Assembly: GCA_018224385.1 (NCBI GenBank)
Contig: JAGTVB010000272.1
Span: 1-33,249 of the forward strand
DNA from: Gammaproteobacteria bacterium
GTDB taxonomy: Bacteria > Pseudomonadota > Gammaproteobacteria > HK1
DNA: 33,249 nucleotides
Direction of reading: 5' to 3'
Part shown: in pieces, positions 4,764 through 31,128 of the stretch
How the letters are laid out: each line of letters begins with the position of its first letter
Numbering within the stretch: position 1 is the stretch's first letter
The notes under the pieces: generated by a model
Told to the model about the DNA's origin: nothing
Databases searched by the model: none
Seen by the model: the letters and a program-made list of their open reading frames with translations, nothing else
Position numbers and translations under genes: made by a program

Positions 4764-7700
4764 TTAGGCATGCGCTGCGTTGACGACGGTTGGCTGAAGG
4801 CGCAGGATCTCCTGAAAATCGTTGGCCGGTACCGGGCGACTATAAAGGTATCCCTGTCCTTGGTGGCAGCCTTCCCCAATGAGAAATGCTTCCTCAGCGG
4901 CAGTCTCAATGCCCTCAGCAACAACAGTCAATCCCAAACTTTTACCTAAGCCGATGATCGCTTTGGCGATGGCTTTGTTGTTGGGGTCTCGGGGAAGGTC
5001 ATGAACAAACGACCGATCAACCTTGAGTTTGGTGACCGGAATGCGTTTCAGATAGCTCAAGGAGGAATAGCCCGTTCCGAAGTCATCAATGGCGAGCTCA
5101 AATCCCAGGTCGCGCAGACGTTTCAGCGTCCGGATAGATTGGTCGGCTTCGCGCATGATGAAGCTCTCGGTAATTTCCAGATCCAGGAGCTCGGCTGGGC
5201 AGCCGGTCTCTTCGATAACCTTCCGCGCCACATCGGCTAAATTCCCCCGCTTGAGCTGCTGGCCGGAAATGTTCACCGCCAAGCGCATTTGTGGAAATCC
5301 GGCGTCCAGCCAAGCGCGTAACTGTCCGCAAGCGATGCGCAGCACCCACTCCCCGATAACGTCTATTTCGCGGGTCTCCTCTGCCAGGGGTATGAATTTA
5401 TCCGGTGCAATGAGTCCCATGGTTGGGTGGTGCCAACGGATCAGCGCTTCCGCACCGACCAAAGCACGATCTTCAAGGTGGGTAAGCGGTTGATAGTGAA
5501 GTAAGAACTCCTGCCGCCCCATGGCCTGACGCAAGGCATTAAGCAGACGCAGCCGGTCATTGGCTTCTTCAGCCATATCCCGGGCATAGAACTGATAACG
5601 GTTGCGGCCGAGCTCCTTCGCTCGGTACATGGCGAGATCGGCGTTTTTCAGCAAGGTATCCACATCGAGCCCATCTTCCGGATAGACACTGATCCCGATA
5701 CTGCCAGAGATGAAGGTTTTTTGTTCTCCCACACAAAACGGCTTTGACAGGGCGTGTAATACCTTGCGCGATACCGTTTCGGCCGCTGAAATTCCTGTGA
5801 TGTTCTCCAGCAGGATGGTGAACTCGTCGCCGCCAATCCGCGCCACAGTGTCCTGACGGCGCAGGCATTGATGCAGCTTCTCGGCAACCTGCTGCAGGAG
5901 CTTGTCTCCCATAGGATGGCCGAGCGTATCATTGATAGTCTTGAAATGATCGAGGTCAATGAAGAACACAGCCATTTGCATGGTTTCTCTCTTCGACCGC
6001 TCCAGGGCATGGTGTAGTCGGTCGACGAACAGCAGGCGATTGGGCAGCTTGGTGACAACATCGTAATGCGCTAGGCGGTAGATACGCTCTTCTGAAAGCT
6101 TCTGCTCGGTAATGTCGTAATAGGTCGAAATGTAGCGCCGGATGTGTCCTTCATCGTCACGCACAGAAGATATGGTCTGCCACAGGGGAAATACATGGCC
6201 ATCCTTGTGGCGATTCCAGATTTCACCTTGCCAGGCACCCATTTCCTGCAGCGACCGCCGCATTTCCGAGCGAAAGTCGTCATTGTGCTGATCCGATCGC
6301 AACAGACGGGGGGTTGCTCCAATGGCTTCCTCGGCACTGTAGCCGGTGATGCGGGTAAAGGCCTGATTGACCTGCACAATGACCCCATCAGCGTCGGTAA
6401 CCATGATGCCATCCATGGTGTTCTCAAAAACGCTGGCGGCCAACGCGAGCTTTTCCTCGGCCCGCTTGTGCGAGGTGATGTCCTGGAACAGCAGGATAGC
6501 GCCATCAATCGTCGTCTGTTCACCACAATACGGCATGATTCTCATTTCGTAGAAATGACCGCTGCCATCGGTGATGACTTGTTCATGGGTGTCGCCGCTC
6601 TCCATCACCGCATGTACCTGAGTACCGATGCTCGGTAGTTCGACCCGCCACTCCATCGTGGTTAGCGACTGGCCCTCGAGCGCTCCTCGGAAAACAGCGA
6701 CCTGCTCGATCGCATCATTCTTTTGAGTAATAAGGAGGTTGCGATCAACCACAAGCAGGGGTAGGCGCAGGCTCTCCTTGACGTTCGCTAGATCACTTGC
6801 CGTGGCCTCCAGCTCAGCGGACTTGATTTGTACCTCATCGTTGACTGTGAGCAGCTCTTCATTGGTGGACTGCAGTTCCTCATTGGCCGTCTGCAGCTCT
6901 TCGTTCAGGGATTGCAATTCTTCATTGGAGGTTTCGAGTTCCTCTACCACCGTTTGCAGATGGGTGCGCGTGCTGGCGAGCTCTCGTTCCAGCTCACCAA
7001 TGATCAGGTTGTCGTGTTCCCTGCCCGCTATGGATTCACGCTCGGCCCGCGACGGCCTGTTCCCGGACTCGAAAGAGACGATCAGCAGCCCCAGTAGATC
7101 GCCCGGTAAGGGCGCCACCACGGGCCGCACGTCCTGTTCTTGGCCATCGTACATTATCCGGTGAATGCCACCCTGCACTTCCCTTTGATCCCTTCGGCAC
7201 CGATACACGAGGGCGCGTAGCTCGGAGCGCAGCGAAGCATCGACCATGTCGAACAGGCACATGGAGGCCTGCCCCTTGGGAAAACGGAGATACGGTTTCA
7301 GATCGCTGGTGAAATACTTCACCGTGTCGTCCTCCGCCAGCACGACCGAGGCCGGTGCATAGCGTTGCGCAAGCTGCTCATTGGCCTGCATACCGATGCG
7401 TTCGGCACCAGTCTTTACGCTCTCCGGCGACTCACGGTAGTCGGACAAGCTGGCGTACGTGCCCTGGACGATCGGCAGGGAATAGTGGGAAACGCCCTCA
7501 CGACGCTGATACAGGCGGGCCGTGCGATCGGCCGATGAAAACAGGTCTTTGTGCTGTTCGATAGACTCCGACTTGCCGAGAAACAGGTAGCCGCCCGCAT
7601 TCAGTGCGTAGTGAAACAGCTCTAGGAGTTTCGTCTGCACCGACTGATTCAAGTAGATAAGGAGATTGCGACAGCTGATAAGGTCGAGACGCGAGAACGG

Positions 7701-8942
7701 TGGATCGTCAATCACATTCTGACGCGCAAACACTACCCGCTCCTTCAGGGACTTGCGCACCCGGCACTGGTCCCCAATGATCTCAAAATAGCGGCTCCGC
7801 AAAACCTCCGGCACGTGCTCCAATGTCACCAGGGAGTAGCGGGCCGCCCGTGCGTGCTCGACCGCGTCGGCATCCAGGTCAGTGGCGAACAACAGGAACT
7901 GCGGCCCATCGTCGCAGACCCGTACCGCCTCGGCGAACAGCATTGCCAGGCTGTAGACCTCCTCGCCCGTGGCACAGCCGGGGACCCAACAGCGCAGCAC
8001 ATCCGTCTTCTTCCCTTTCGCCACCATTTGGCGGATCATTTTGTCAAGGCTAGCGAACGCCTCGGGGTCCCGAAAGAATGATGTGACCGTGATCAGCGTG
8101 TCGCGCATCAGCGCCAGGGACTCCGCCCGGTCATCCTTTAACCGGGTGAGATAGTCCGCAAAGCTGGAGAGACCGAGAATGCTGAGCCGTCGGCTTATCC
8201 GACGCAGCACCGTCGTGCGCTTGTAGTCGTTGAGATTGAATCCGGTATGGCGGCGCACAAGGGTCATCATGGCATTGATACTGTCGCCTTCCGCACCCTC
8301 GTCGGATACCACGAGCCCGATGGGTGCCTTGAGCAAGCGTCCCAGAGTACCGCCGATCTGGTCTGCGGGCATGATCAGATCCACGCTGCCGGTTCGAAGC
8401 GCGGACTTCGGCATGCCATCGTATTTGGCCGTTGCAGGCTCCTGGACAATGGTGATGCCGCCTTCTGCCTTGATGGCCCGCATCCCCTCAGCGCCATCCG
8501 ACCCGGTGCCCGACAAAATAATAGCGATGGTATGTTCCCCGAGCTCCTTTGCTAATGAATTAAAGAAACGATTGATGGAGGGTTTTGGCCCTACGGCTTC
8601 TTCGGGCGCGGTCAGATGTAGCACGCCGTCCCGAAAAGTGACATCACGATTGGGCGGGGTGATGTAGACCACCCCCGGCTCCGGCCGTTGCCTGTCGCGC
8701 AGGTTGTGCACTGTGAGCTTGGTCATCGGCGCGAGCAGATTCATGAGCAGGCTGACGTGGGTTGGCGAAACGTGCTGTGCGATGATGTAAGAAAACGGTG
8801 CGGCAGGTGGCAATGCCGCCACGAAATCACGCAGGGCTTCGAGGCCGCCCGCCGACGCACCGACGCCCACTATTCGGACCGGTGTGTCGCTGGTCGATCC
8901 GCTTTTTTTCTTACCACGATTTGCCGTTTGGTTTTTCACCAT
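4764..8942 (-). CDS. CheB-CheR-PAS-PAS-GGDEF-EAL signalling fusion
   Basis: This encodes a 1392-residue cytoplasmic protein with no transmembrane segment or receiver domain. Start ATG 8942 follows GAGAGG; 45 further upstream codons look non-coding. Domains in order: CheB methylesterase (20-200) with its triad visible as Ser30 (GASAGG), His57 and Asp149 (GTGSDG); CheR methyltransferase (221-480) with the SAM-binding motif GCATGEE (322-328); a PAS-like linker; a coiled coil (about 640-720) built of repeats such as [14 protein letters not shown]; a weak PAS (725-825); a clear PAS (830-945); GGDEF (950-1115); and EAL (1130-1380). The diguanylate cyclase motif GGDEF is intact (1037-1041), with the inhibitory I-site R1028-x-x-D1031 five residues before it. 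The EAL site is also intact (EAL 1165-1167, DDFGTGYSS from 1286). It may link methylation-type sensing to c-di-GMP turnover. No chemotaxis genes are nearby. Confidence 0.95.
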
Positions 8943-23594: not shown

Positions 23595-25040
23595 ATGCGC
23601 GTGCGGCTATCGATTCGGCACAAATTGTTCTTTACCCTGTTATTGGTCAGCGCCGCTGTGGTCGTAGCCACATACGGATTCATGCGCTGGTCATTCGAAC
23701 GAGGCTTCATTCGTTTTGTAGAGGCTCGCCAGCAGCAGCACATCGACAATCTCGTGGCGAGCCTCACCGATGAGTATGTGCGTAACGACGGCTGGCAAGA
23801 ACTGCGCGGTAACAAGCAACGCTGGATACAGCTCTTAGTGACGCGCCAGCCGCACCGCAGGCCTCACCGGGCGCCGTGGATCAAGGATGCGCTGCGCGAC
23901 ACCTCAACCACTTGGCCGCCGCCGTCGAAGCTACCTCAGCGACGCCCGTTTCGACCTCTGGAGCTTCGGGTCATGCTGCTGGATGCCAGCCGGTCTTTGA
24001 TTTTCGGCGATACCAGCCAAGTTGAGCACCTCACCTTAAATCCGATCCGGGTCGCCGGACAGACCGTGGGTTACCTCGGTGTCCTGCCTGGACCGAGCCT
24101 CAGCGAGATCGGCGAAATCCGCTTTCTGCAACAACAAACCGAAGCCTTTGTGATCATTGCCATCATCATGGTCGTGATGTCGGCGGCGCTGACCTTGCCG
24201 TTGGCCTACACGCTCGTGAGGCCCCTGCGGCGCATTATTGATGCTTCCAAGGATCTGGCCATCGGGCGCTACGAGACCCGTATTCCGGTTCCTTCCAACG
24301 ACGAGCTGGGTCAGCTCGCCCGCGATTTCAATGAGCTCGCTCATGCTTTGGAGCAGACAGAGCGGGCCCGTCGCCAATGGGTCGCCGATATCTCCCACGA
24401 ACTGCGCACGCCCCTCAGCGTCCTTCGCGGTGAGATCGAGGCCCTGCAGGACGGGATGCGTGTTCTCGATCGAGCGGCGCTCGATTCACTGCATGCCGAT
24501 GTGATGCGCCTCAGCCGATTGGTGGGCGATCTGTACGAACTATCGATGACCGATCTCGGCGCGCTGAGTTATCACAAAGCGCCGGTCGATCCCGTGCCGA
24601 TTCTGCAGGACGACGTGGAAGCGCTGGCGGGCGAATTCGTGCAACGCCGCATCGCGGTTCATGTTGACAACCAACTGGCTGGCCCAGTGATCATGTACGC
24701 CGACGCGGACCGGTTGTCCCAGCTTTACCGTAATCTGCTCAGGAACACGCTTCGCTATACTGAAGCGGGCGGCAGACTGGAAATACACATCAGGCAACAC
24801 CAACACGAAGTGCTGCTCTGCTTTCAAGATACGCCACCGGGTGTTCCTGAATCGGAGCTACCCCGTCTGTTTGAGCGCTTCTACCGAGTAGAAACCTCGC
24901 GCAGCCGCTCCCACGGAGGCGCGGGATTAGGGCTCGCCATCTGCCGCAACATCGTCGAGGCCCACGACGGACGTATTGGCGCCCAAGCGTCGCCGCTTGG
25001 GGGGCTGCTAATTCATCTCGAGCTACCCCTTATGCCATGA
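23595..25040 (+). CDS. baeS: Sensor histidine kinase BaeS
   Basis: This encodes a 481-residue inner-membrane kinase. The N-terminus (RLSIRHKLFFTLLLVSAAVV, then SFERGFIRFVEARQQQHIDNL) follows the E. coli BaeS pattern. The first transmembrane helix is at about 12-29. A periplasmic sensor region of about 150 residues follows, then the second helix (about 182-207), HAMP (208-260), and the kinase core. The phosphoacceptor is His268 in DISHELRTPL; the N-box RNLLRNTLRY is near 378, and the G-box GGAGLGLAICRNIVEAHDG is near 440, all intact. BaeS senses envelope damage by misfolded proteins and toxic compounds and phosphorylates BaeR. The stop overlaps the start of baeR by four bases (ATGA), so the two are translationally coupled. 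Confidence 0.93.
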   Translation: MRVRLSIRHKLFFTLLLVSAAVVVATYGFMRWSFERGFIRFVEARQQQHIDNLVASLTDEYVRNDGWQELRGNKQRWIQLLVTRQPHRRPHRAPWIKDALRDTSTTWPPPSKLPQRRPFRPLELRVMLLDASRSLIFGDTSQVEHLTLNPIRVAGQTVGYLGVLPGPSLSEIGEIRFLQQQTEAFVIIAIIMVVMSAALTLPLAYTLVRPLRRIIDASKDLAIGRYETRIPVPSNDELGQLARDFNELAHALEQTERARRQWVADISHELRTPLSVLRGEIEALQDGMRVLDRAALDSLHADVMRLSRLVGDLYELSMTDLGALSYHKAPVDPVPILQDDVEALAGEFVQRRIAVHVDNQLAGPVIMYADADRLSQLYRNLLRNTLRYTEAGGRLEIHIRQHQHEVLLCFQDTPPGVPESELPRLFERFYRVETSRSRSHGGAGLGLAICRNIVEAHDGRIGAQASPLGGLLIHLELPLMP

Positions 25041-25738
25041 CTACTGCTGGCCCAAAGCGCATCCTCGTTGCCGAGGATGAAGTGAAGCTGGTGCGCGTAC
25101 TGGAGGATTACCTCGCCAATGCCGGGTACCGGCCGCATTGGATTGACGACGGACTAAAAGTCGTCCCCTGGGTAAGGCAAGAAGCACCGGACCTCATTCT
25201 TCTGGATCTCATGCTGCCGGGGCGCGACGGGTTTGATATTTGCCGCGACATCCGCAGCGCTAGCCGCGTTCCGATTATCATGGTCACAGCGCGGGTCGAG
25301 GAGATTGACCGGCTGCTGGGTCTTGAACTCGGCGCGGACGACTACATTTGCAAGCCCTGTAGCCCGCGGGAGGTGGTCGCTCGAGTCAAGGCGGTGCTAC
25401 GACGCACAGCACCGGAAACCGCCCCGTCCGACGAAAGCCCGTTGGAACTCGATGTGCGCAGCTATCGCGTGCGAACCGGCGAGCGTCAGGTGGAGTTGAC
25501 GACCGTTGAATTCCATCTTTTCCACACCCTGTATCGGGAGCCCGGTCGAATCTTCTCCCGTGAGCAGCTGATGGATCGAATCTATGCCGATCGCCGGATC
25601 GTGTCCGATCGCACCATCGATAGCCACATTAAAAAGCTGCGGAAAAAGCTTGCCGAACTGTTGCCTGCCGAGGAGCTGATCCATTCCGTCTACGGAGCGG
25701 GCTATCGCTACGAGCTGCAACTGAAGGACCCCGGCTAG
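25037..25738 (+). CDS. baeR: Response regulator BaeR
   Basis: This encodes a 233-residue OmpR/PhoB-type regulator. The receiver domain (8-120) has acidic Glu13/Asp14, the phosphoacceptor Asp57 in LILLDLMLPG, a Thr in MVTARVEEIDRLLGLELG, and Lys in ADDYICKPCSPREVVARVKA, a segment nearly identical to that of E. coli BaeR. The winged-helix DNA-binding domain (about 135-230) shows LTTVEFHLFHTLYREPGRIF, DRTIDSHIKKLRKKL and VYGAGYRYE. It is expressed together with baeS. BaeR in E. coli activates spy and multidrug efflux genes; here a spy-like gene starts 165 bases downstream, while no efflux pump is in the window. I could not identify a BaeR box by eye. Confidence 0.93.
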   Translation: MTTAGPKRILVAEDEVKLVRVLEDYLANAGYRPHWIDDGLKVVPWVRQEAPDLILLDLMLPGRDGFDICRDIRSASRVPIIMVTARVEEIDRLLGLELGADDYICKPCSPREVVARVKAVLRRTAPETAPSDESPLELDVRSYRVRTGERQVELTTVEFHLFHTLYREPGRIFSREQLMDRIYADRRIVSDRTIDSHIKKLRKKLAELLPAEELIHSVYGAGYRYELQLKDPG

Positions 25739-27162: not shown

Positions 27163-28260
27163 GTGCCACGTCTTTGCCTAATCGCACTTCTGATCGTAAC
27201 TCTGTTTAGCGCTCGAGGTATTGCGGCCGAGCAGCCGGTGCTGCATATCTACAACTGGAGCGATTACATAGCCGACGAGGTTCTGGAACAGTTCCAGGCC
27301 GAGACCGGGATCGAGATCGTATACGACGTCTACGACTCCAACGAGGTGCTGGAAGCCAAATTGCTGGCTGGACGCAGCGGTTATGATCTGGTATTCCCCA
27401 CCGCGCGCCCGTTCGCCCAGCGACACATCAAGGCCGGTATCTACCAAAAGCTCGACAAGGCCCAACTCACCAACTACGGTAATCTGGATGCGTTGATGCT
27501 GAAGAATCTGGCAGATGTCGATCCGGGCAACGCCCATGTCGTACCCTACCTATGGGGGACCACCAGCATCGGTTACAACCGCACCCAAGTGGCGGACAAG
27601 CTCGGCGCCAGCACAGCGGCGGCTACCTGGGCTCTCATCTTCGATGCGGCCAACGCGGAGCGTCTCGCCGGTTGCGGTATCAGTCTGCTGGACGATCCCA
27701 CCGAAGTGTTCAGTGCGGCACTCATTTACCTCGGTAAGGATCCCAACAGCACCGATCCGGTCGATCTCGAAGCGGCCACTGCGCTGCTGCAGCAGGTGCG
27801 TCCCTACATCCGCTACTTCCACTCCTCGCAGTACATCAATGACTTGGCGAACGGCGATCTGTGCCTGGCGCACGGCTACTCTGGGGATATTCTTCAGGCA
27901 CGCAACCGCGCCCATGAGGCGGGCCATGACGTGCAGGTGGCCCTTGCCATTCCGCGGGAAGGAGCAATCCTGGCGGTCGACGTGATGGCGATCCCCGCCG
28001 ATGCGAGGCATTCACAAAACGCCCATCGCTTCATCGACTTCATCCTGCGGCCCGAGGTGATCGCCAAGATCACTGACGCCGTCGCCTTCGCTAATCCCAA
28101 CCTGGCTTCCTTGCCGCTGCTGACTCCCGCGGTGCGCAACGACCCCGGCATCTTCCCACCGTCGCACGTACGGCAGCGGCTGGTATCACCCGCCGAATTG
28201 GCACCGGCAGCGCAGCGCGCGCGCACGCGCGCCTGGACCCGGATCAAGGCCGGTCGCTGA
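27163..28260 (+). CDS. potF: Polyamine ABC transporter binding protein (PotF/PotD type)
   Basis: This encodes a 365-residue periplasmic protein. GTG 27163 follows GGGGAT about eight bases upstream. The signal peptide ends around residue 22 (GIAA-EQ). The mature protein begins VLHIYNWSDYIADEVLEQFQ, the first strand and Tyr/Trp-Ser-Asp ligand site of PotD/PotF proteins. ETGIEIVYDVYDSNEVLEAK, GYDLVFPTARPF and VPYLWGTTSIGYN follow, and the later parts LCLAHGYSGDILQAR and PREGAILAVDVMAIPADA are also typical. The presence of the PotG/H/I genes right behind, with PotG closely following the E. coli protein, favours putrescine (PotF) over spermidine (PotD), but ligand specificity is inferred. It is the first gene of a four-gene operon. 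Confidence 0.94.
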   Translation: MPRLCLIALLIVTLFSARGIAAEQPVLHIYNWSDYIADEVLEQFQAETGIEIVYDVYDSNEVLEAKLLAGRSGYDLVFPTARPFAQRHIKAGIYQKLDKAQLTNYGNLDALMLKNLADVDPGNAHVVPYLWGTTSIGYNRTQVADKLGASTAAATWALIFDAANAERLAGCGISLLDDPTEVFSAALIYLGKDPNSTDPVDLEAATALLQQVRPYIRYFHSSQYINDLANGDLCLAHGYSGDILQARNRAHEAGHDVQVALAIPREGAILAVDVMAIPADARHSQNAHRFIDFILRPEVIAKITDAVAFANPNLASLPLLTPAVRNDPGIFPPSHVRQRLVSPAELAPAAQRARTRAWTRIKAGR

Positions 28261-28266
28261 CCCGCA

Positions 28267-29397
28267 GTGACGGGATCCGCACCTCGACTGGAGGCGTGGC
28301 AGGACCCGGCTGCCGCGCCTCTGGTTGCGATCAAGGGCGTCAGCAAATCCTTCGACAGGCAGGCTGCGGTCAGCGACGTATCGCTCGCAATCTACCCCGG
28401 TGAGTTCTTTTCCCTGCTGGGAGCGTCCGGCTGTGGCAAGACCACGTTGCTGCGCCTGCTGGCGGGCTTCGAGCGGCCGGACCAGGGGCGGCTGCTGATT
28501 GCCGGCCAGGATGTCACCGAGCTGCCACCGTACCAGCGACCGGTCAATATGATGTTTCAATCCTATGCGCTGTTCCCGCATCTGTCGGTGGCAGACAATG
28601 TGGGCTTTGGACTGCGCCAGGAAGGCCTACCGCGGCGCGACATCCGGGTGCGGGTGGCGGAAATGCTCGACATGGTCAAGCTTGGCAGTTTTGCCCAGCG
28701 CAAACCGGATCAGTTGTCCGGCGGGCAGCGCCAGCGCGTGGCTTTGGCCCGTTCGTTGATCAAACACCCCAAGCTGTTGTTGCTGGATGAACCGCTCGCT
28801 GCACTGGACCGAAAGCTCCGGGAGCACACGCAGTTCGAGTTGGTGAACATCCAGGAGCGCGTCGGCATCACCTTCATCATGGTCACCCACGACCAGGAAG
28901 AAGCCATGACCATGTCAACGCGCATGGCGGTGATGAACGAGGGACGTATTCGCCAGATCGGCACGCCCGTGGAAATCTATGAGTTTCCGGCCAACCGCTT
29001 CGTCGCCGGGTTCATCGGCGCCGTGAACCAGTTCGAGGGACGCGCCTTGGCTCAGGCGGGCGATGTGCTCCAGGTGTATGCCGAGAGCGCCGGAACGGAG
29101 CTGCGGGTGCACGTGCCACAGGCGGTGGTTGCCGGCTCACCGGTGGTGGTCGCGGTGCGGCCGGAAAAGGTACGCCTCGGGCGCGAGCCGCCGCCTGGGG
29201 ACAATCGGCTGCAGGGCACAGTTGAAGAAATCGCCTACCTGGGGGATGTCTCGGTTTACCACCTGCGCGTGGCCGGCGGCGCATTGATCGAGGCGCAGCT
29301 CACCAATCATACCCGTGGCGCGGCGCCACCGCTCACCTGGGGCGATCGCGCCTGGGTGGGCTGGAACGCAGACGATGCGTTCGCCCTCGTGGAGTAA
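28267..29397 (+). CDS. potG: Putrescine ABC transporter ATPase PotG
   Basis: This encodes 376 residues, with GTG 28267 six bases after the potF stop. Walker A is GASGCGKTT (52-60), the Q-loop is in MMFQSYALFPH, the signature LSGGQ is at 150-154, Walker B is LLLLDEP (170-176), and the H-loop is VTHDQEEAMTM. The segment RPVNMMFQSYALFPHLSVAD is nearly that of E. coli PotG. The C-terminal part (about 245-376) forms the TOBE regulatory domain, with VAVRPEKVRLGREPPPG and EIAYLGDVSVYHLR. It drives uptake by ATP hydrolysis at the inner face of the membrane. It is co-transcribed with potF, potH and potI. Confidence 0.96.
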   Translation: MTGSAPRLEAWQDPAAAPLVAIKGVSKSFDRQAAVSDVSLAIYPGEFFSLLGASGCGKTTLLRLLAGFERPDQGRLLIAGQDVTELPPYQRPVNMMFQSYALFPHLSVADNVGFGLRQEGLPRRDIRVRVAEMLDMVKLGSFAQRKPDQLSGGQRQRVALARSLIKHPKLLLLDEPLAALDRKLREHTQFELVNIQERVGITFIMVTHDQEEAMTMSTRMAVMNEGRIRQIGTPVEIYEFPANRFVAGFIGAVNQFEGRALAQAGDVLQVYAESAGTELRVHVPQAVVAGSPVVVAVRPEKVRLGREPPPGDNRLQGTVEEIAYLGDVSVYHLRVAGGALIEAQLTNHTRGAAPPLTWGDRAWVGWNADDAFALVE

Positions 29398-29401
29398 GAT
29401 C

Positions 29402-30313
29402 ATGCGGCGCCGCTCCGCGCCATGGCTTCGCCGTTTCCGGCCGGGTCGGTGGGTCGTGGCCGCTGTGCCCTTGCTGTGGCTCGGGTTGTTCTTCGGGCTG
29501 CCATTTTTCATCGTGGTCCGCATCAGCCTTTCGGAAACAGTGATCGGGCTGCCGCCCTATTCGGCACTGCTAGAGTGGATCGAAGGCGGCATGCTCAGCA
29601 TTCGCCTCAACTTCGCCAACTTTGCCCTGCTCTGGCAAGACAGCCTGTACCTGGACGCCTTCATCAACTCGGTGCGTGTCGCGGCAACCGCCACACTACT
29701 GTGCCTGTTGCTCGGTTATCCGATGGCGCTCGGCATTGCCCGGGCCCGGCAGAGCCTGCGCATTCCGCTGTTGCTGTTGGTGATTTTGCCCTTCTGGACC
29801 AGCTTTTTGATCCGCGTGTATGCCTGGATCGGCATCCTCAAGGGCAATGGGCTCGCCAACAACGTCTTGCTGTGGATTGGTTGGATCGAGCAACCGCTGC
29901 CGCTGCTGCATACGGACTTCGCCGTGCATCTGGGCATCGTGTACGGCTACCTGCCATTCATGGTGCTGCCGCTCTACGCCACCCTGTCGCGCATGGATAG
30001 CAGCCTGTTGGAAGCGGCAGCCGATCTGGGCTGCCGCCCCTCGCGTGCCTTCTGGCGGGTGACCGTGCCCCAGTCACGGCCCGGCATCCTCGCCGGCTCG
30101 CTGCTGGTGTTCGTGCCGGCGGTCGGAGAGTTCGTGATTCCGGACCTGCTGGGCGGACCGGATACCCTGATGATCGGCAAAGTGCTCTGGAGCGAGTTCT
30201 TCAACAACCGCGACTGGCCGGTAGCGGCCGCCGTGGCGGTGGCTCTGCTGGTATTGCTGGTCGCCCCGGTGCTGCTGTTCGAGCGGCTTCGGGAGCGGGC
30301 GCAGCCGAGATGA
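29402..30313 (+). CDS. potH: Putrescine ABC transporter permease PotH
   Basis: This encodes a 303-residue inner-membrane permease. ATG 29402 comes four bases after the potG stop, with GGAG overlapping the end of potG; the longer frame from 29315 lies inside potG and is rejected. A charged start (RRRSAPWLRRFRPGR) precedes the first helix. About six membrane segments follow. The cytoplasmic EAA loop reads EAAADLGCRPSRAFWRVTVP, which docks on the ATPase. PFWTSFLIRVYAWIGILKGNG and VGEFVIPDLLGGPDTLMIGK are typical of PotB/PotH. Its stop overlaps potI by four bases. Confidence 0.95.
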   Translation: MRRRSAPWLRRFRPGRWVVAAVPLLWLGLFFGLPFFIVVRISLSETVIGLPPYSALLEWIEGGMLSIRLNFANFALLWQDSLYLDAFINSVRVAATATLLCLLLGYPMALGIARARQSLRIPLLLLVILPFWTSFLIRVYAWIGILKGNGLANNVLLWIGWIEQPLPLLHTDFAVHLGIVYGYLPFMVLPLYATLSRMDSSLLEAAADLGCRPSRAFWRVTVPQSRPGILAGSLLVFVPAVGEFVIPDLLGGPDTLMIGKVLWSEFFNNRDWPVAAAVAVALLVLLVAPVLLFERLRERAQPR

Positions 30314-31128
30314 ACGGCAAACGTCCCAGCCTGGTGTTCAGTCTGCTGGCGTTCGGCTATGCCTTTCTGTACGCGCCCATCGTGTCCTTGATCGTGTATT
30401 CGTTCAACGAGTCGCGCCTGGTCACGGTGTGGGCCGGCTTCTCGACCAAGTGGTATGTCAGTCTCTTACACAACGATCAGCTTTTGGGCGCGGCCTGGGT
30501 GAGTCTTCGCATCGCGGTGATGAACGCCACTCTGGCGGTGGTGCTCGGCGCGTTGGCCGCCACGGCACTGGTTCGCTTCGGGCGCTTCCGCGGGCGACCG
30601 GCCCTGGCGCTCATGGTCGGAGCGCCGCTGGTGATGCCCGACGTCATCCTCGGGTTGGCCTCGCTGCTGCTCTTTGTTGCCATGGAACAGCTGATCGGCT
30701 GGCCGGCGGGACGCGGCATGACCACCATCACCATCGCGCACGTGACGTTCTCATTGGCCTATGTCGCGGTGATCGTGCAGTCGCGCCTGGTACGCCAGGA
30801 TCCGTCGTTGGAAGAGGCGGCGATGGACCTGGGGGCGCGCCCGTGGAAAGTGTTTTTCGTAATTACCCTGCCTTTGATTGCCCCAGCGCTCGCGGCCGGA
30901 TGGCTGCTCGCCTTTACCTTGTCGCTGGACGATTTGGTGATCGCCAGTTTCGTGTCCGGTCCCGGCGCCTCCACCTTGCCGATGGTGGTCTACTCCAGCG
31001 TGCGCCTCGGGATCAGCCCAGAGATCAATGCCCTGGCCACAGTGCTCGTGGTGCTGGTCACCAGCGGTATTGCCATCGCCGGCTGGCTGTTACATCGCCG
31101 CGAGGCACGCCGGCAGCTCGCCGAGTAA
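30310..31128 (+). CDS. potI: Putrescine ABC transporter permease PotI
   Basis: This encodes a 272-residue inner-membrane permease, the partner of PotH. ATG 30310 overlaps the potH stop (ATGA), which indicates translational coupling. LYAPIVSLIVYSFNESRLVT and WAGFSTKWYVSLLHNDQLL match the PotC/PotI start. The EAA loop reads EEAAMDLGARPWKVFFVITL. SLDDLVIASFVSGPGASTLP and VYSSVRLGISPEINALAT are typical near the end. It completes the transporter: binding protein, ATPase and two different permeases. There is no clear terminator after it. Confidence 0.95.
   Translation: MNGKRPSLVFSLLAFGYAFLYAPIVSLIVYSFNESRLVTVWAGFSTKWYVSLLHNDQLLGAAWVSLRIAVMNATLAVVLGALAATALVRFGRFRGRPALALMVGAPLVMPDVILGLASLLLFVAMEQLIGWPAGRGMTTITIAHVTFSLAYVAVIVQSRLVRQDPSLEEAAMDLGARPWKVFFVITLPLIAPALAAGWLLAFTLSLDDLVIASFVSGPGASTLPMVVYSSVRLGISPEINALATVLVVLVTSGIAIAGWLLHRREARRQLAE

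Follow-up and report, generated by a model that had tools for sequence, protein, structure and literature searches.

The gene at 4764..8942 on the minus strand of the 33,249-nucleotide stretch analysed here (the window; contig JAGTVB010000272.1, or C272, of the gammaproteobacterial assembly GCA_018224385.1, hereafter G000) encodes, in one chain of 1392 residues, a CheB methylesterase, a CheR methyltransferase, a coiled coil, PAS domains, a GGDEF domain and an EAL domain. It is generally taught that a chemoreceptor is needed for glutamate methylation to bring about adaptation. Sequence comparisons lead us to propose, with a probability of roughly 0.42, that this protein is a self-contained sensor-enzyme for cyclic diguanylate (c-di-GMP) with its own methylation-based adaptation, in which the coil would be the methyl acceptor. 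Such a role of the coil is new as far as our literature searches reach; it fits several of the patterns described below, and it has clear exceptions. No report of the full architecture, or of methylation of a CheB-CheR coil, was found in the open-licence literature, although a subscription paper could exist.

A receptor-type motif in the coil

Residues 644-724 (6771..7013, minus strand) are predicted by AlphaFold2, with low confidence, to form an 81-residue helix of NEELQ[ST]x heptads, the proposed methyl-accepting coil; in an 815-residue model (pLDDT, the AlphaFold2 confidence score, 70.6) a single helix runs across this segment with pLDDT values of only about 40-66. The repeat N-E-E-L-Q-[ST]-x carries the relaxed receptor methylation motif EExx[AST][AST], which the window protein has in a heptad array; the glutamates that would be methylated are at about residues 667-697. 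The consensus over 54 such coils has Asn at heptad position a (66%), a Glu-Glu pair at b-c, Leu at d, Gln or Glu at e (65%) and Ser, Thr or Ala at f (87%); as the registers were set by the Glu/Leu pattern, only the preferences at a, e, f and g are independent of that choice. Several of the glutamates are more than 90% conserved, and the coils differ from one another by the gain or loss of whole heptads. A first-pass annotation of the window, made from the sequence alone, had listed the coil but did not recognise the receptor-like motif, nor did it ask what the methyl substrate might be.

Written as [EQ][EQ]xx[ASTG][ASTG], the relaxed motif occurs 222 times in the 54 coils, versus a mean of 27 and a maximum of 43 in 500 shuffles. 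Arrays of at least two motifs at seven-residue spacing were counted in 954 distinct open reading frames (ORFs) of at least 250 residues, from loci picked for CheB-CheR, GGDEF-EAL or receptors. They are present in 84 of the 90 rows of coil-bearing CheR ORFs and in 11 of 24 receptors, against 2 of the 20 ORFs that have CheR or CheB alone and 6 of the remaining 820, figures that give a rough specificity only, some rows being overlapping slices of one gene and some of the other ORFs non-coding frames. Of these last six, one is a CheA frame, and in the other five, all coil ORFs, a stop, the end of a slice or a loss separates the coil from CheR. The motif is present in each of 15 receptors used as controls, taken from other genomes of this class, with three or more copies in 14 and heptad arrays in 11 (for example EEQASS-x-EETASS-x-EELTST); the four without arrays are L215-L218. 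The likeness of the window protein to methyl-accepting chemotaxis proteins lies in EExx[AST][AST] at seven-residue spacing, whereas it differs from them in having neither MCPsignal nor HAMP among the matches listed and in a coil that is, in the low-confidence prediction, one continuous helix.

Association of the coil with CheR

When residues 1-720 of the protein were compared with 369 genomes of the class, 44 gave a match at E 1e-60 or better. The coil is in the same frame as CheR in 59 of 65 CheR-containing rows and in line with it past a stop or shift in three (L107, L118, L136), and two more rows (L133, L138) stop at or close to the end of a contig. A coil profile run on the same 369 genomes gives 72 matches at E 1e-6 or better, 61 of them with at least 67 bits; 58 of these 61 belong to a CheB-CheR gene or are in line with one, and one of the remaining three (L192) is at a contig edge. 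Among the 11 weaker matches, L194 and L195 share a frame with CheR and L118 has it in line, a further one is a fragment in a genome without a CheR match (G211), another is in a PAS-kinase (L185), and six are hybrid kinases or alike, of which the Pfam scan covered four (all except L188 and L190). Two of the six have such genes directly behind them on the same strand: at L186:1412-6543 a CHASE3-HAMP-GAF hybrid kinase with an EEL coil is followed by stand-alone CheR and CheB, and at L189:1268-5745 a HAMP-GAF hybrid kinase with an EEL coil is followed by a stand-alone CheR; both sets resemble the cfc set of Pseudomonas putida considered below. Within CheR itself, Arg247, Arg291, Glu327, Asp355, Asn426 and Tyr430 are kept in 58-60 of 60 rows, and the two other sites checked in 50 and 51.

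Genomes with a fusion and no detected receptor

MCPsignal has no match in five of the 44 genomes with CheB-CheR, and CheW-type domains (CheW, CheA) have none in four of the 16 tested for them, namely G203 (99% complete, one contig), G274 (96%), G293 (99%) and G326 (78%). Since neither a receptor nor a CheW-type match was obtained in G203, G274 and G293, where the fusion is the sole CheR match, a receptor would not be the substrate there, unless the searches missed it. The checked CheR sites of these three fusions equal those of the window protein, except in L141 (G203); the Asp of CheB is retained by the fusions of G203 and G293, whereas that of G274 has Glu in its place. L135, the single fusion of G293, agrees with the window protein at all 11 sites compared. 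The coils of L096 (G274) and L135 (G293) carry an array, and that of L141 is short and has none.

Integrity and domain architecture of the gene

The gene reads from an ATG at 8942 to a TAA without internal stop, and the GC content of its frame is lowest at codon position 2 in all 14 blocks of 100 codons. A frameshift or a joint of two genes, the error named by the first-pass annotation as a refutation of its reading, is ruled out by this single open frame with uniform, coding-type codon-position GC. Pfam places CheB, CheR_N, CheR, two PAS, GGDEF and EAL in the chain, all past cut-off, as that annotation had described, and phmmer matches the protein to solved GGDEF-EAL, CheR and CheB chains. 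All coordinates that follow are on the minus strand. Just 24 residues precede the CheB methylesterase domain (residues 25-199, 8346..8870; CheB_methylest, E 8e-54), and the N-terminal receiver of canonical CheB is missing; the domain has Ser30, His57 and Asp149 and, in the 815-residue model, matches the CheB structure 3sft with Z 28.3. The all-alpha CheR_N domain (residues 224-271, 8130..8273; Pfam) is followed by the CheR methyltransferase domain, which binds S-adenosylmethionine (SAM; residues 286-474, 7521..8087; Pfam E 2e-49), matches the CheR structure 5ftw with Z 28.8 in the same model, and has its SAM-site residues. We take these CheB and CheR residues to have the corresponding catalytic and SAM-binding roles.

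Because CheR, CheB and other methyltransferase folds took up the VIA-align list of the 815-residue model, residues 496-642 were folded alone with AlphaFold2 (6 sequences, pLDDT 71.5) and the Protein Data Bank was searched with Foldseek; the matches listed are PAS/LOV domains or PAS-bearing chains, with a best E of 4.5e-5, and point to an extra PAS-like domain, missed by Pfam, at about residues 510-627 (7062..7415). The two PAS domains of the first-pass annotation both stand by Pfam, PAS_10 directly behind the coil (residues 719-823, 6474..6788) and PAS_4/PAS_9 after it (residues 839-948, 6099..6428), but two is probably an undercount: these models suggest that there are probably three PAS-type domains, one of them between CheR and the coil. 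The GGDEF domain (residues 958-1115, 5598..6071; Pfam E 2e-51) has its GGDEF motif and the I-site RxxD (R1028/D1031), and the EAL domain (residues 1135-1370, 4833..5540; Pfam E 1e-70) has EALIR and DDFGTG, so that the earlier description of the catalytic motifs and I-site as intact holds throughout. No receiver or MCPsignal domain is found in the protein among the matches listed (25 of 29 Pfam families), and likewise no HAMP match is among those listed.

Distribution and evolution of the fusions

Architectures were read from the domains in the fetched loci. The complete single-frame order CheB-CheR-coil-PAS-GGDEF-EAL is present in at least 9 of the 369 genomes (11 genes, including that of the window, with two in G000), which answers the architecture search that had been suggested from the outset; a contig scan with the single protein as query gave just four GGDEF-EAL relatives. 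An architecture unique to G000 is ruled out by these other genomes. Judged from the domain content of the loci, the full CheB-CheR-PAS-GGDEF-EAL order is rare, yet it turns up repeatedly. L098 and L099 have an altered EAL motif, L137 has no CheB, and in G343 the two parts of the fusion are on two contigs (L138, L192).

A further CheB-CheR-PAS-GGDEF-EAL gene, annotated only as 'EAL domain-containing protein', is carried by a plasmid of Shewanella sp. LC6; in a tblastn search of 72,556 plasmid records it is the sole one of 1430 matching records with a single place covering at least 80% of the query. On this conjugative plasmid (L143:7500-15251) the fusion gene lies between transposase genes, and one gene away is the gene of a soluble PAS-type receptor without the relaxed methylation motif. 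Viral-contig data (IMG/VR) gave seven loci: six are full fusions (L198-L203, including two near-copies), with the coil in all six, and L204 spans only about the first 120 residues. The contigs of L198-L203, catalogued as viral, are either mobile or mis-assigned cellular DNA.

Thirty of the 43 other coil-bearing C-termini were scanned by Pfam. PAS_10 is present in 28; in 16 a kinase of the HisKA or HWE type follows, in some cases with a receiver, and 14 show only PAS domains. Seven changes are required to place the GGDEF-EAL label on a tree built from 60 CheB-CheR cores, at least six of them forced by well-supported branches. The number stays at seven when six cut-off rows are dropped and L138 is relabelled GGDEF-EAL, in view of a coil-PAS-GGDEF-EAL frame at the edge of another contig of its genome. 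With about seven changes on the tree, the fusion has been gained or lost repeatedly; as far as these sequences tell, the fixed unit is CheB-CheR-coil-PAS, and the output part is exchanged. The second full fusion of G000, on C276, belongs to a separate well-supported set and is not a recent duplicate of the window gene.

Two loci have the same elements in neighbouring genes. At L118:3795-8996 CheB-CheR and the coil are in two frames, owing to a shift, and are followed by a separate PAS-GGDEF-EAL gene on the same strand; at L122:4735-9853 a multi-PAS GGDEF-EAL gene is directly followed by a coil-less CheB-CheR gene, with a bacteriophytochrome-like stretch, read by eye, next in another frame. The coupling of receptor-type methyl chemistry to c-di-GMP that was suggested at first is partly supported: it is the natural reading of the fusion, and it is strengthened by the repeated change of output label and by the adjoining genes of L118 and L122.

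The window and the genome

Pfam was run on 20 ORFs of the window, and those with a match are housekeeping, transport or two-component genes: a short-chain dehydrogenase, a glutamate-synthase-like protein, pyruvate kinase, transporters, a kinase/regulator pair and an ABC transporter. The pair (23595-25738) consists of a HAMP-HisKA-HATPase kinase and a receiver/Trans_reg_C regulator, and downstream of it the ABC transporter set (27163-31128) comprises a solute-binding protein, an ATPase with TOBE and two permeases. Searches of the whole genome for MCPsignal, CheW, CheR and CheB match C272 in the 4764-8942 gene only, in line with the earlier remark that there is no chemotaxis operon nearby; there is no receptor or CheW-type match on this contig, and hence no cluster of receptor, CheA and CheW of the Wsp type.

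G000 is 91% complete, so that an absent gene could fall in an assembly gap. Chemotaxis genes do exist elsewhere in it, off C272, with three receptors and eight CheW-type domains genome-wide. Its three CheR domains are all inside CheB-CheR fusions, those of the window, of C276 (1548 residues, likewise with PAS-GGDEF-EAL) and of C321 (993 residues), and no stand-alone CheR was found by the genome-wide CheR search of this assembly; CheB occurs in the same three fusions and in one 207-residue CheB. Contig C205 (6160 bases; L147:1-5741) carries a flagellar-type set, CheY-CheZ-CheA-MotC-like-MotD-like-CheW, of which the CheA and CheW frames agree with the CheW-type search and the remainder were named by eye. 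In pseudomonads cheB is located in the cheA-motC slot. No cheB is in that slot in C205, and flagellar chemotaxis in G000 may be methylation-independent. The three receptors have 0, 1 and 1 relaxed motifs, none in arrays, and none has a pentapeptide-like end; this lack of motif arrays is suggestive, and only suggestive, of the fusion's own coil as substrate.

Relation to known systems

By its sequence, the protein is a rare but recurrent member of both the CheB-CheR hybrids and the dual GGDEF-EAL proteins. With the former, such as Rhodospirillum centenum RC1_3878 and the Geobacter 'cheBR fusion', it shares CheB and CheR in one chain; these hybrids are mentioned in passing in PMC2890560 and PMC8396549, with no substrate, coil or c-di-GMP output described in the excerpts consulted. 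With PAS-GGDEF-EAL dual enzymes such as MucR, DosP and PA0861 it shares residues 944/959-1377, which match solved GGDEF-EAL chains, but the match is confined to the GGDEF-EAL or PAS-GGDEF-EAL part, the matches of CheB and CheR being to separate chains. Wsp and other chemosensory systems with alternative functions rely on a genuine receptor together with CheA, CheW and a regulator that is phosphorylated. These components are absent from the window protein and from C272; the common trait is methylation machinery tied to a c-di-GMP output, as treated in sections of PMC3447774. The excerpted text of a review on c-di-GMP sensing (PMC8846402) names CheR/CheB once, for chemosensory systems.

In P. 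putida, according to passages of PMC4951495 and PMC6849547, cfcB/cfcC are a CheB/CheR pair for which a role in chemotaxis is reported to be ruled out, and they cluster with the CHASE3/GAF hybrid kinase CfcA, required for the diguanylate cyclase activity of CfcR (GGDEF/EAL); no substrate of CfcB/CfcC is described in these passages. An unpublished remark in PMC4951495 states that mutants in cfc genes other than cfcA are unhampered in the crinkle phenotype. The likeness is in CheR and CheB outside chemotaxis, beside a multisensor kinase on which a GGDEF/EAL protein depends; the difference is in the separate genes, with probable kinase-regulator phosphotransfer, and in a kinase in place of direct fusion. 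We infer that the cfc set may be a split relative of the window protein.

Discussion

Several observations weigh against the coil as methyl acceptor. The strict receptor methylation consensus is [ASTG][ASTG]xx[EQ][EQ]xx[ASTG][ASTG]. These ten residues are not enriched in the coils (2 in 54, versus 1.6 when shuffled), mainly because the first position is usually Gln there, and they have no match in the window protein, whose relaxed array is short (two consecutive motifs and one 14 residues earlier). Four of 59 coils have no array, including that of L141 from receptor-less G203, in which CheR Gly322 is also changed to Ala. One of the 65 rows (L122) is a CheB-CheR protein without coil, and the coil is retained in L181, which has no CheR and whose CheB fragment is in a different frame, in L182, where the CheR part is absent, and, in degenerate form, in the PAS-kinase L185, which has no CheR. 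The heptad glutamates could be purely structural. CheR and CheB might serve as domains that sense a metabolite (the SAM level) or dock a c-di-GMP effector, the coil being a plain signalling helix and catalysis unimportant for the output, an explanation that we consider unlikely though by no means negligible. It would accommodate the weaker EEL coils of L187, L188, L190 and L191, with no CheR within the 9-kb stretch fetched (CheR is present elsewhere in their genomes), and the CheB Asp149 altered in 4 of 60 rows, including L096 of receptor-less G274; whole-heptad gaps are possible in coils of any kind, and Pseudomonas aeruginosa CheR1 binds the c-di-GMP protein MapZ (title of structure 5xly). 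It accords less well with the retention of six CheR sites in nearly every row and of two more in most, and with coil glutamate pairs conserved above 90%, which is more than a plain exposed coil position needs.

It appears unlikely to us that the fusion acts in trans on ordinary receptors, methylating and demethylating those of the flagellar and pilus-type systems as the chief source of CheR and CheB in the genome, and reports their state as c-di-GMP. G000 does have receptors and CheA/CheW sets and yet no stand-alone CheR that we could find, and the LC6 fusion is one gene from a receptor; but the latter has no motif, the receptors of G000 are poor in motifs and have no pentapeptide-like end, C272 has no MCP or CheW match, and CheB-CheR-coil proteins occur in three nearly complete genomes without a receptor or CheW-type match. 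The argument from the G000 receptors is itself weakened by the 4 of 15 control receptors that are also array-less, and the gene absences in this genome may be gaps. That the methyl groups really go to a different protein, such as a hybrid histidine kinase whose EEL coil resembles that of the fusion, and that the fusion couples this kinase to c-di-GMP, we regard as quite improbable. Such kinases adjoin a stand-alone CheR (L189) or CheR and CheB (L186), and the P. putida cfcA-cfcB-cfcC set, whose CfcA is needed by a GGDEF/EAL regulator, is similar in content; on the other hand, the fusion coils score at least 67 bits versus 32-41 bits for the coils of those kinases, the scan of 20 window ORFs showed no such kinase beside the gene, and the cfc genes besides cfcA are reported, in the unpublished remark of PMC4951495, to be unneeded for the crinkle phenotype.

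If the window protein is a self-adapting sensor-enzyme, it would probably be cytosolic, with two chains pairing via the coil. CheR would put methyl esters on coil glutamates and CheB would take them off, in the same chain or across the dimer. The coil is a weak one, with Asn at most core 'a' positions, and less negative charge on it would change its packing, as in the methylation bundle of receptors; the changed packing would in turn shift how the PAS signal sets the balance of diguanylate cyclase versus phosphodiesterase. Since CheB has no receiver domain, it would be regulated by the protein itself or by a partner and not through phosphorylation by CheA. CheB-CheR-coil-PAS would then be a portable module, elsewhere mounted on histidine kinases. 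We extend this tentatively to CheB-CheR-coil proteins in general: each could be a one-piece adaptation system that needs no receptor for its receptor-type methylation, and such systems would have been joined time and again to kinases and to enzymes of c-di-GMP turnover. The window protein would on this view be a c-di-GMP switch that has a methylation memory of its own.

Should the coil be the substrate, one purified protein would suffice to test its methylation. Fusions now labelled 'chemotaxis protein', 'CheR family methyltransferase' or 'EAL domain-containing protein' could then be re-read as self-adapting sensors, and there would be a direct covalent link between SAM-dependent methylation and c-di-GMP turnover.

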